In this document: positions 59,164-64,000 of the stretch, piece by piece
How positions within the stretch are numbered: the stretch's first letter is position 1
Layout: each line of letters begins with the position of its first letter
DNA from: Cephaloticoccus sp.
Lineage (GTDB): Bacteria; Verrucomicrobiota; Verrucomicrobiia; Opitutales; Opitutaceae
Direction: 5' to 3'
Assembly (NCBI GenBank): GCA_030833445.1
Contig: JAURHD010000014.1
Location: forward strand, 1-64,000
Length of the DNA: 64,000 nt
Made by a program: the position numbers and the translations under genes
The notes under the pieces: model-generated
What the model saw: only the letters and a program-made list of their open reading frames with translations
The model's database searches: none
What the model was told of the DNA's origin: nothing

Positions 59164-59598
59164 TTACAGGCCCAGTGGCACTAAGTTTTGGAATATCTCC
59201 TGCAGCAGAGGTTCGTTGGCCAATAGCTCCCAGTTTACATTGGCTGATACCCGCACGAACAGTTGGTCGCCATTTCTGGTAAATCCATGACGCAAGGCAA
59301 TCCGTAGCAACTCTGCAGCGGAATAGGGATTTTCATAGGCAATGGGCCGTCCATTATAGACATGCCAAAACCATACATGCTGCGAGTAAGGACCGTTATA
59401 GAACAGGCGAGATTCTGCGACTGGTAGATTCAGGCCGGGCAGAATCAAGGTCTCTTGGGGCGTCTCGTTTTGGACGAGGCTCCAACCGGAACCCGGCCAG
59501 CACGCATCCGGCGTGTGCATGGCAACCTGACTCACGGAAGATTGCCCAGCCTGCCAGAATGCCAGATAGACCGTCAGCTGGATTTCCCCTGTCTCCAC
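59164..59598 (-). CDS. EpsI-like (DUF3485) C-terminal portion in shifted frame
   Basis: In this frame the protein continues the EpsI-type domain: [38 protein letters not shown] with the family Cys-Trp-Pro-Gly motif, [20 protein letters not shown] and a C-terminal [20 protein letters not shown]. The ORF lacks its own N-terminus, which is in the exosortase frame; one nucleotide near 59608 separates the frames. It is thus the second half of an exosortase-EpsI fusion, or a broken one. The GTG at 59598 has no good ribosome-binding site. Confidence 0.75.
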
Positions 59599-60766
59599 TG
59601 CGTTTACGATAAGTTCTTTGGGCGAGATTCTCGGTTTCGAGGATGCCGCTGAATTGGTATACCTCCGTGCTGGTTGTCACACGCCAGCCATCTGCTTCGG
59701 TTGGTAACATGGAGAGTAGAACTGGTAGCGGGGTCTCGTTCGGGGGCAACGGCCGGGTGTTGAGGTAAAAAAATATGGCCAGCGATGCGGCGCAGATCAT
59801 GCCGATGGTCAAAAACTTCGAAGCGGTTTGTGGGCGAGGGGGCTTTTCCGCTTCTGCAACCTTTGTGGACGAATTCTCATTGATTGGCTTTCTTTGATCC
59901 AGCAAGAGGGCACTACCGCCCAGGATTACTGCCGTAACCCCGAGAACCGCAAATCCGGTCAAATCATGCCAAGTGCCGCTAATATCGACCCCGCGATTGG
60001 CCATCAGGGTGAGGATCAGTGAGCGAATAAAATTCATCAGCACGGCAAGCGGTGCCGCCAAGAGGATGATAATTAACCGCGCCCATGGCTTGGTCACCAA
60101 TGTGGCCGAAAAGAAGAATCCGGCAAAGATGCAGGAGATCAGGCTTCTGACCCCGCTGCAGGCCTCAGCTACCCCTACCGATGTGCTGGCCAACTCAATG
60201 ATATTCCCGTGTCGACTCGCCGGAATCCCGAGCAGATGCAGGGCGGACAATACGTTTTGCGACACCATCAGCTGCAAACTGAGTGTAATGTGGGTATAGG
60301 TGCCGGGTGGAATCGGGGCACTGAGCAGCCATAGCCCTATGGCCACGAGCGAAGTCCAGTTCATGGGCATTAATCCGACCTGACGATTTGAGAACACCAA
60401 TAATCCAGCGAAGAAAAGCAGGGTGGTGGAGATGGTCAGACTGAAAGCCACCAAAGTGTGGTTCCAGCCAACTGAGGCGGAATAAAGTCCGCTGGCTGCC
60501 AGCGCGACGAGACCAGACAATAGACTCACCGCTATCAGGCAATGCAGGCTCCAGTGTGAAGGCAGATAGCGTGGTGTGCCCTGTGAGCGGGACTCCTTAA
60601 GTAACAGCAGAAATAGCACCGACATAAACAAACCATGCGATAGGTCCGGGTTATGTTTCCAGTGGGGCCAGAGCAATGCCGTGATCGTAACAAAGAGCAA
60701 TCCCAGCAGTATCAAGTTGAGCTTGATATGCCATGGCTGTCTTTGCGCTTCGCGATAGAGGGTCAT
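59396..60766 (-). CDS. Exosortase/archaeosortase, fused to EpsI domain by a frameshift
   Basis: A membrane cysteine-protease-like transpeptidase that sorts PEP-CTERM-type proteins. About eight hydrophobic helices carry the catalytic signature: Cys in [13 protein letters not shown], Arg in [16 protein letters not shown] and His in [13 protein letters not shown] linker and a second membrane helix ([14 protein letters not shown]) lead into the start of an EpsI domain ([13 protein letters not shown] to LAQRTY). After that the frame becomes Arg/Ser/Gly-rich and unlike the family, and the correct continuation is in the +1 frame near 59608. I chose ATG 60766 over the TTG five codons upstream. The tail 59396-59607 is therefore not expected to be native. 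Confidence 0.85.
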
Positions 60767-60915
60767 GCCTGATTGAAACAATTGAATAGATAATCTGCGA
60801 AAGCCGCAAGCAGTGCAGCGTCAGACATGGTGACTCCTGCCCATACACTAGTCTCCTAAAATCATGCGACGACTGGCTTTTTTCTCAAATAGGTTTTACT
60901 CGTGTGCAATTACTC

Positions 60916-61527: not shown

Positions 61528-62385
61528 TTAGGCAGGTAGATTATACCCGAACAAATCCGGTTGGAGGATTCCTTCCGCGACCCGGGTAACGGAACCCGTC
61601 ATCAGGATATCGAAATCAGGGGTCATCTCAATCTGGAGAGACCCACCCGGCATACGCACCGTGACCCTTGGGTCGACCAAATTCAATTTATAGGCTACGG
61701 CGGCTGCGGCACTGGAGCTACTGCCGGATGCGAGAGTATAGCCGGCGCCTCTTTCCCAGATTTCGATTTGGATAGTCTCGCGATCGATCACTTTCAGAAA
61801 TTGGACGTTGGTCTTGTTCGGGAAGTTCGGATGCACCTCCAGGACGGGACCGTATTGATTGGCAAGCTCGGCTGAAATATCCGCCATGGGCAGCACGCAA
61901 TGGGGGTTGCCGATCGTGGCGGAGCAATAGGTAAAGTCGCGCTCCAGAACCTTGATGGATTCCTGCAGAACTTCCCGGGGCGATCCCACGACAGGAATTT
62001 TTCTACTGTCGAAACTCACGCGGCCCATCTCAACCGAGATCAATTGGTTTCCCTCGTGGATCGTGGATTGCACCCGTCCTCCCATAGTCTCGATACTAAA
62101 CGTCGGATTGGAGACCAAAGAGTGATCCGACAGGAAACGGGAAAAAATTCTGAGCCCATTGCCTGACTTTTCGGCTTCTGAACCATCAGGATTAAAAATT
62201 CTCAACCGGTGATCAGCGTCCCGGGAAGGCAGGGGCCCCCAAAGGATACCGTCTGACCCAACCCCAAAATTGCGATGGCAGATCGCGCGAATTTGTCGGC
62301 TTGTTGGCTCGTTCCAATCCGGGTAATGAGCGGGATTTAGGACAATGTAATCATTGCCAAGGGCATGATACTTGAAAAAGCGCAT
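61528..62385 (-). CDS. dapF: Diaminopimelate epimerase homologue lacking both catalytic cysteines
   Basis: A 285-residue protein from ATG 62385 (a GTG lies six codons upstream). DapF architecture is complete: MRFFKYHALGNDYIVL, FNPDGSEAEKSGNGLRIFSR, TIGNPHCVL and IWERGAGYTLASGSSSS. The two catalytic cysteines of DapF (in MCGNG and ACGSG motifs) are both serine here: Ser74 in EKSGNG and Ser220 in LASGSS. The Asn, His (about 162), Glu-Arg (WER) residues that hold substrate are kept. Classical racemisation would be lost or much reduced. It may act on a different substrate, be a regulatory paralogue, or have an altered mechanism. Confidence 0.85.
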   Translation of the reverse strand: MRFFKYHALGNDYIVLNPAHYPDWNEPTSRQIRAICHRNFGVGSDGILWGPLPSRDADHRLRIFNPDGSEAEKSGNGLRIFSRFLSDHSLVSNPTFSIETMGGRVQSTIHEGNQLISVEMGRVSFDSRKIPVVGSPREVLQESIKVLERDFTYCSATIGNPHCVLPMADISAELANQYGPVLEVHPNFPNKTNVQFLKVIDRETIQIEIWERGAGYTLASGSSSSAAAAVAYKLNLVDPRVTVRMPGGSLQIEMTPDFDILMTGSVTRVAEGILQPDLFGYNLPA

Positions 62386-62469
62386 GGGCAGAGCGGTGGA
62401 CACGATGCGGGATTCTGTCGGACGGTTGTCCGTCCCGACAAATCAAATGCGGCCCATTTGTTCGATATG

Positions 62470-63948
62470 TCAGCTGGACTGGGATTCGTAGCCGAAGAGA
62501 TGGCGGGTCTTGATGGCCTTGGCGACTGATTCTGGCACCATTTTCTCCCAAGTTTCGTCACGCTCATTGATGCGGCGCAGAACGTCGCGGGAGAATATGT
62601 GCAGGATGCTGGCGTCGAAGCCTACAATGCAGTCGATGTAATGATTTTCCAACAGGTGTGCGTATAGGTTCCTGAGATGGTCGACCACCTGAACATTTTT
62701 GGCGTTGATCAAAACCCCGGCGGCAAAGGCATTCGTGTTCGGGGTTGCGGTGGGTTGCTCCCCGGTGGCGAGATAATGATCAAAGGCCTCCTGCCGCATG
62801 GGATACACGTAAAGTTTCACTGAATTGCGGAAGAGCCTGCCAAAAGACTCGAGAATGCCACCCTCAAGATTTTCATAGTATTTCTCGTTAAAAATCTCGA
62901 GGAGGTTGTTGATGCCCATGGCGACCCCGATCATTTCCTTGGTGTAGCGGCGGAAATAGGAGGTGAGTCGGTAGAATTCGGAATAATTCGAGATTAGGAC
63001 CGTAAAACCAATGTCACCGAGGAGATCCACCCGGGAAAGAAAATCGGCCGCGTCAAGTTCACCGCTGGCCAACAGATTGTGCATGGTGATCTCCATCAGA
63101 ACCACGATGTTCTTACCTTTAACGATCGGTTCCTGCACAAATTGCGACGCCGCGCAGTTCAACATGTCCACATTGACATGCGTAACGGGACGAAAACTAC
63201 CGCGTTCCACCAGAATAGCTTTTTTGTAGAGCACTTCGGATGGCTGCAGGACATCACCCTTGGGACCAAACATGACGGCATTGGTCAGTCCCCATTGCAC
63301 GAGGGAAAGCGAAGTCAGCCGGTTGTCGACATGGGCAAATTCCGGTCCGCGTAGCTCCAGCATGTCGACCTCGATGCGATCATGGCTCAGATTGTCGAGG
63401 AGTGACTGAATGAATTTTTGCGGATCGTTACGGTAATAAAATGCGCCGTAAACCATGTTGGTGCCGACAATGCCGAGGGCTTCCTGCTGAAGCACATTTT
63501 CCTTATCCCACATGCGCACATGCATCACGATTTCACTGGGCTCGCCCCCCGCTTCGCATTGGAAACGAACGCCCATCCAGCCGTGGGATTCATTAGTCCC
63601 TTTGAAATTTCGGGCAGAGACCGTGTCCGCGAAAACAAAGAACTGGGTGTGGTCACCCCGCTGGTTGGCCAAGCGCTCATTGAGCAATTGGAACTCATGA
63701 TCCAACATCAGGGACAGTCGCTCCTGTGATACATACCGGGCCGACTTGCCATAGATGGCATCGCTGAAGGTCATATCATAAGCCGAGATTGTCTTGGCCA
63801 CGGTGCCGGAGGCTCCGCCGGCATGAAAAAAGACCCGGGCGACTTCCTGACCGGCCCCGATTTCGGCAAACGTGCCGTATTTACTCTCGTCCAGATTTAC
63901 CGTGAGCGCCTTGCGATTGGTGGTCAGCAGATCTTTTTGCTCACTCAT
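62470..63948 (-). CDS. Large conserved protein of unknown function (often mislabelled in databases)
   Basis: A 492-residue protein with N-terminal YGTFAEIGAGQEVARVFFHAGG and ASGTVAKTISAYDMTFSDAI, then SQERLSLMLDHEFQLL, and a well-conserved middle with VGTNMVYGAFYY and DMLELRGPEFAHVDNRL. I recognise the pattern as a family present in Bacteroidetes and Verrucomicrobia that is often inherited as 'TonB-dependent receptor' or 'nicotinate-nucleotide adenylyltransferase'. Neither fits: no signal peptide or beta-barrel, and no HxGH nucleotidyl-transferase motif. I do not know the function. The chosen start is ATG 63948 (MSEQKDLLTTN). It is on the same strand as the upstream-free right edge and 84 bp from the dapF-like gene. 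Confidence 0.75.
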   Translation of the reverse strand: MSEQKDLLTTNRKALTVNLDESKYGTFAEIGAGQEVARVFFHAGGASGTVAKTISAYDMTFSDAIYGKSARYVSQERLSLMLDHEFQLLNERLANQRGDHTQFFVFADTVSARNFKGTNESHGWMGVRFQCEAGGEPSEIVMHVRMWDKENVLQQEALGIVGTNMVYGAFYYRNDPQKFIQSLLDNLSHDRIEVDMLELRGPEFAHVDNRLTSLSLVQWGLTNAVMFGPKGDVLQPSEVLYKKAILVERGSFRPVTHVNVDMLNCAASQFVQEPIVKGKNIVVLMEITMHNLLASGELDAADFLSRVDLLGDIGFTVLISNYSEFYRLTSYFRRYTKEMIGVAMGINNLLEIFNEKYYENLEGGILESFGRLFRNSVKLYVYPMRQEAFDHYLATGEQPTATPNTNAFAAGVLINAKNVQVVDHLRNLYAHLLENHYIDCIVGFDASILHIFSRDVLRRINERDETWEKMVPESVAKAIKTRHLFGYESQSS

Positions 63949-64000
63949 AGTGCTGTTAAGTAGAAATAAACATAATCGGAACAGCAATCAGTTCGTGAGC

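Follow-up and report, generated by a model that had tools for sequence, protein, structure and literature searches.

Can a DAP epimerase work without the cysteines on which its chemistry is built? In textbook DapF chemistry, a cysteine thiolate/thiol pair does the work. The stretch of 64,000 nucleotides from Cephaloticoccus sp. analyzed here (hereafter the window) contains a gene that was originally predicted to encode a DapF homologue in which serine replaces both catalytic cysteines; family scores, motifs and alignment with the H. influenzae enzyme bear this out. The Protein Data Bank returned no natural Ser/Ser DapF, the Ser-bearing DapF entries among its matches being the mutants C73S and C217S, and a description of such a protein was not found in the open-access papers searched. 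Because annotation pipelines label the Ser/Ser proteins plain DapF, the change from Cys to Ser has so far been invisible.

If a Ser/Ser DapF does epimerize DAP, then a thiolate would be dispensable for DAP proton abstraction, and the proteins that share the pair would point to what can substitute for it. Inhibitors of the aziridino-DAP type trap the cysteines of DapF; such cysteine-trapping compounds should fail on a working Ser/Ser enzyme, which would be of consequence for drug design. The wall type of verrucomicrobial subdivision 4, a long-standing question, also becomes directly testable.

The gene and its two catalytic positions

The gene can be read from a GTG or from an internal ATG (Table 1), the latter being the start matched by most homologues; residue numbers refer throughout to the 291-aa form that begins at the first GTG. 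The product scores 246 bits against the NCBIfam DapF model TIGR00652 (cut-off 114.65; residues 7-280 of 291) and 185.7 bits against the Pfam model PF01678 (cut-off 34.7), and it stays below the cut-offs of the PhzF family (TIGR00654; 19.7 bits against 76.2) and, by far, of the bifunctional DapF/glutamate racemase of Chlamydia type (NF038284; 70.2 bits against 350), an enzyme that has the DapF fold and comes from a related phylum group. An AlphaFold2 model (pLDDT 95.9) finds its best Foldseek matches in solved DapF structures, with TM values of up to 0.92, and thus has the DapF fold.

The motifs are NPDGSEAEK[S]GNG and ERGAGYTLA[S]GSSSS, in which brackets mark the serine at each catalytic position, and the serine codons are TCA and TCC, as originally read. 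In the AlphaFold2 model, Ser80 and Ser226 stand immediately before helices 81-93 and 227-239, which is where DapF has its catalytic cysteines, one at the head of each central helix. The protein belongs to the DapF family by homology and fold, and it lies outside the canonical two-cysteine definition by its catalytic pair, Ser80/Ser226, which its whole clade shares. It also departs from the Ser/Cys epimerases of the proline racemase superfamily, whose two faces carry Ser and Cys, respectively, and whose substrate is of proline type, in that Ser occupies both faces.

Compared with canonical DapF (EC 5.1.1.7; structures from H. influenzae, P. aeruginosa and Anabaena), the fold, length, DAP-binding residues and motif frames are the same, the catalytic pair is likewise placed at helix N-caps, and the pathway role is alike by context. 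The differences are Ser/Ser for Cys/Cys and, in addition, Lys79, Gln201, Glu214, Tyr222 and Ser229 in place of Met, Glu/Asn, Arg, a variable residue and Gly, respectively. Ten DAP-binding residues (N17, N71, G81, N82, N166, H168, N199, E217, R218 and G227) are invariant in both the Ser and the Cys types. Relative to H. influenzae DapF, a single substrate-site residue is changed, Gln44, which is Gly in the query, as it is in plant and cyanobacterial Cys enzymes (PMC12039745). In the Desulfobacterota, Cyanobacteria and IMCC26134 loci examined, the gene lies outside any dap operon, so that gene context is uninformative.

Table 1. Positions in the window of the dapF gene, its key codons and neighboring genes
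Feature	Position	Strand	Remarks
Ser/Ser DapF-like gene	61528..62403	(-)	GTG start, 291 aa; TIGR00652 and PF01678
Same gene from internal ATG at 62385	61528-62385	(-)	285 aa
Lys79 codon	62167..62169	(-)	Immediately N-terminal of Ser80; Lys present in 99% of Ser-clade members
Ser80 codon, TCA	62164..62166	(-)	Replaces the first catalytic Cys (Cys73, H. influenzae DapF)
Glu214 codon	61762..61764	(-)	Glu present in 99% of Ser-clade members; position computed from ORF start
Tyr222 codon	61738..61740	(-)	Tyr present in 98% of Ser-clade members; position computed from ORF start
Ser226 codon, TCC	61726..61728	(-)	Replaces the second catalytic Cys (Cys217, H. influenzae DapF)
505-aa protein adjoining dapF	62473-63987	(-)	No Pfam or NCBIfam match
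Exosortase/archaeosortase-family protein	59399-60781	(-)	TIGR04178, 49.5 bits (cut-off 23); a fused C-terminal part may run on in another frame at 59164-59598, possibly through a frameshift

Conservation, descent and distribution of the serine pair

Relatives came from 80 loci of a genome collection, at 59-71% identity, and from a set of 57 related genomes. More than 150 Ser/Ser proteins, 41-71% identical to the query, come from Opitutales, other Verrucomicrobiota, Desulfobacterota and Cyanobacteria. The alignment has 237 rows, 150 of them Ser/Ser and 87 Cys/Cys, and another 39 loci divide into 38 Ser/Ser and 1 Cys/Cys; no mixed Ser/Cys DapF occurs among these rows and loci. Every aligned relative above 41% identity has Ser at both sites, the sampled Cys-type DapF proteins being about 33-37% identical to the query, and the Cys-type genes sampled in its phylum keep both Cys. 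Both positions are 100% Ser in the 133 unique clade members, and the codons at Ser80 are TCN in 85 and AGY in 47, those at Ser226 TCN in 127 and AGY in 5; switching between the two codon families takes two base changes and passes via Thr or Cys. The serine pair is a conserved state, and decay is excluded. The source is a draft genome of 72 contigs, which might raise the suspicion of a sequencing or assembly artefact; however, considerably more than 100 independent assemblies show the same residues, among them a single-contig chromosome of 4,199,284 bp (G318), so that such an artefact is hardly conceivable and the original reading, that no misread base is involved, is upheld.

With both catalytic columns removed from the alignment, a maximum-likelihood tree groups the Ser rows in one clade (100% SH-aLRT) on a stem of 1.5 changes per column, with a single change of state. 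The tree is a quick one with long branches, and the placement of the clade among the Cys types is therefore unsure; its unity is well supported. A block of residues marks the clade: the combination Lys79/Ser80/Gln201/Glu214/Tyr222/Ser229 is complete in 145 of the 150 Ser rows, and its counterpart in the Cys rows is Met (Leu, Thr, Ile)/Cys/Glu or Asn/Arg or Lys/variable/Gly. Position 79 is never Lys in the Cys clade, where Met prevails and Leu, Thr or Ile are rare; almost every member of that clade has Arg or Lys at position 214, and position 222 is variable and never Tyr. Ile86 of the Ser clade stands where the Cys clade has a near-constant Cys. A divergent Ser/Ser DapF (L118:5021-5863), from a genome of 0.9 Mb in which LysA was not detected (G042), has Ile instead of Lys79.

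Opitutales were sampled with 74 genomes, each at least 90% complete and drawn from two sets of 45 and 29: 64 carry Ser/Ser DapF, 6 a Cys-type DapF instead, 4 are without DapF and none has both. Among the Cys-type genomes, G016, G021, G027, G043 and G329 were checked by motif, and G267 was assigned by similarity only. The lineage comparison suggested along with the original prediction thus finds Ser/Ser DapF near-universal and single-copy in Opitutales and patchy elsewhere. In other Verrucomicrobiota it is sometimes found beside Cys copies (G160, G186, G259, G288 and G319); divergent Cys/Cys DapF-like proteins on a long branch of their own (L161, L162, L163, L166 and L167) also occur in some Verrucomicrobiota that carry Ser/Ser. 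Ser/Ser is present in 4 of the 197 Desulfobacterota genomes sampled, and five carriers from an earlier search have it as their only DapF. In Cyanobacteria (3 of 146 genomes), it usually lies alongside canonical Cys DapF: both types occur in Dulcicalothrix desertica (G331; L093, L165), which has two Ser/Ser copies, in Westiellopsis (G332; L164) and in Aphanothece (G333; L157). The role of the cyanobacterial Ser/Ser copies beside Cys DapF may differ. This distribution across Opitutales, other Verrucomicrobiota, Desulfobacterota and Cyanobacteria suggests a single origin followed by transfer. Among the matches listed from plasmid and phage collections, DapF appeared only below 40% identity.

The DAP pathway and wall chemistry of carriers

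The original prediction separated two cases: an only dapF, with epimerization by a serine-based or some other route, and a gene beside an ordinary dapF, which would be a repurposed paralogue. In the source genome (97.75% complete), the genome search found no second PF01678 gene and no meso-DAP dehydrogenase (Ddh), and DapL is present (569 bits). The first case thus applies to this genome and to Opitutales; the second fails for the source genome, where the gene is the sole copy, and may hold for cyanobacteria with Cys DapF alongside. MurE (537 bits) has the motifs DNPR and GKGHE, which we take to be those of meso-DAP ligases, and DNPR was found in MurE of 15 of the 15 genomes examined, among them Ser genomes. 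Within a search covering PF01678 and Ddh, this genome accordingly combines DapL, LysA and a meso-DAP MurE with the Ser/Ser protein as its single candidate epimerase, and it lacks Ddh. Since DapL, LysA and a DNPR MurE are present, the source organism is expected to need meso-DAP, for which the PF01678 and Ddh searches of its genome point to no other putative source.

Two genes of the source genome are LysA-like. One is canonical (G000:C22:205875-207098; L276:1851-3107; about 447-448 bits); the other (G000:C1:13975-15231; L277) is divergent and, at 291.5 bits, slightly below the curated cut-off. Most Opitutales families have the divergent LysA alone, and most Opitutaceae have the canonical one. 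A coupling of Ser DapF to canonical LysA was considered and rejected, because the wider set contains many Ser genomes with divergent LysA alone; the LysA pattern reflects lineage. LysA was not detected in G045 and G048, which keep the Ser/Ser gene, as does G042; its retention in these genomes fits a peptidoglycan role for DAP.

Ddh is an enzyme that makes meso-DAP directly. Ddh is present in three of the four DapF-less Opitutales, with strong matches of 262-266 bits (G051, G194 and G220), and among the 64 Ser/Ser genomes in four (G010, G018, G011 and G072), a difference with a Fisher p=0.0027 that ignores kinship. G010 and G018 have a full DAP-DH by TIGR01921 (320 bits) despite low PF16654 scores, and G011 and G072 have Ddh-like proteins with weaker PF16654 matches. 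Strict exclusion between Ddh and Ser/Ser, which we had considered, was rejected on account of the full DAP-DH in G010 and G018, and what is left is an association. Outside Opitutales, in family f32, Ddh is present in 13 of 15 DapF-less genomes. One Opitutaceae genome (G029; 97% complete) has DapL, LysA and MurE, and neither DapF type nor Ddh was found in it; a gap in the assembly or some further route to meso-DAP may account for this.

Among cultured relatives, DAP was detected by GC/MS in Lacunisphaera limnophila IG16b and Opitutus terrae, and sacculi were isolated from the former (PMC5303756). In the genome taken as L. limnophila IG16b (G318), Ser/Ser is the only DapF match, Ddh was not detected, and LysA and a DNPR MurE are present; the genome taken as O. 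terrae (G011) is one of the Ser/Ser genomes with a Ddh-like match. DAP in Opitutaceae is ~1/10 of the E. coli level, ornithine also appears in the hydrolysates, and GC/MS is blind to the isomer (PMC5303756), all of which leaves room for LL-DAP walls in this family.

Candidate serine chemistry and competing explanations

Most DAP-producing cells with Ser/Ser DapF have no other copy, and a chemical pair other than Cys/Cys is therefore the probable basis of its activity. We consider it likely that the protein is a working LL-DAP to meso-DAP epimerase with Ser/Ser as its catalytic pair, a reading that is supported by the single copy, the surrounding pathway, the strict conservation and the occurrence of Cys-DapF or Ddh in its stead. 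Fold and substrate site are those of DapF, and the thiol/thiolate acid-base pair would give way to two serine hydroxyls at helix N-caps, with Ser80 and Ser226 as the putative bases of a two-base proton transfer. Their reactivity may be tuned by Lys79, Glu214, Gln201, Tyr222 and Ser229 together with the helix dipoles, and of these residues Lys79 is the best candidate for activating Ser80. A more specific proposal has about an even chance of being right: the enzyme would be a cysteine-free, cofactor-independent amino acid epimerase that abstracts an unactivated alpha-proton by means of Ser/Ser and an activating Lys79/Glu214/Tyr222 network, would be the essential source of meso-DAP in Opitutales, and would go back to a single origin, the two Cys having disappeared before the last common ancestor of the clade. 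A redox rationale, by which the enzyme would be oxidation-proof, does not agree with the presence in the clade of Desulfobacterota, which are typically anaerobes, and was rejected.

It counts against a Ser/Ser epimerase that the hydroxyl of serine is much weaker as a base than a thiolate. Single Cys-to-Ser changes, moreover, hinder catalysis in Cys enzymes (PMC12039745; PMC11602996), although this hindrance fits a need for the co-fixed residue block as well. The H. influenzae DapF mutants C73S and C217S (PDB 2Q9H, 2Q9J) have Ser at one of the two positions of the query, but they are single laboratory mutants without its compensating residue block. The nearest precedent is the 4-hydroxyproline 2-epimerase with Ser93/Cys255, which is active and demonstrates that Ser can stand for one Cys in a two-base epimerase (PMC4113996). 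This enzyme shares the broad fold of the query, hydroxyproline epimerases being found by Foldseek, but it keeps one Cys, acts on another substrate and is about 15% identical.

DAP might also be epimerized with Lys79, or another residue fixed in the clade, moving the proton, and with the serines merely positioning or relaying. Lys79 is shared by 99% of Ser-clade members and by no member of the Cys clade, it changed jointly with Glu214, Gln201, Tyr222 and Ser229, and a Lys/Ser base pair is known from PLP-dependent serine racemase (PMC8142540). However, the residue that precedes the catalytic Cys makes no hydrogen bond with the ligand in Cys-DapF structures (PMC12039745), and the reduced-genome homologue L118 retains Ser/Ser with Ile79; we regard a lysine base as possible but somewhat doubtful. 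A broader departure would be a clade repurposed for the racemization or epimerization of another amino acid, or for an elimination, with DAP epimerized by another enzyme or, given an LL-DAP wall, not needing to be. Racemases of His, Dab or O-ureidoserine are indeed known among DapF-fold proteins that had been annotated as DapF (PMC11602996, PMC8225329), the cyanobacterial Ser/Ser gene coexists with Cys DapF, and ornithine is present in Opitutaceae hydrolysates (PMC5303756). We nevertheless consider repurposing unlikely, since the DAP contacts, including the distal-site Arg218, are all retained, MurE has the meso-DAP motif, and the gene has no second copy beside it in Opitutales or in several Desulfobacterota, being replaced one for one by Cys DapF or Ddh.

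E. coli DapF binds RppH, an example of a non-catalytic role, and a catalytically dead DapF could be retained for such a function, for instance as a protein-binding partner. Both catalytic Cys have been lost, and the change from Cys to Ser impairs known DapF (PMC12039745), as this explanation would have it. We nonetheless find it very improbable: the active-site residues are the most conserved part of the protein, both Ser are 100% conserved over both codon families, and the Ser/Ser protein is the only candidate epimerase where meso-DAP is needed.
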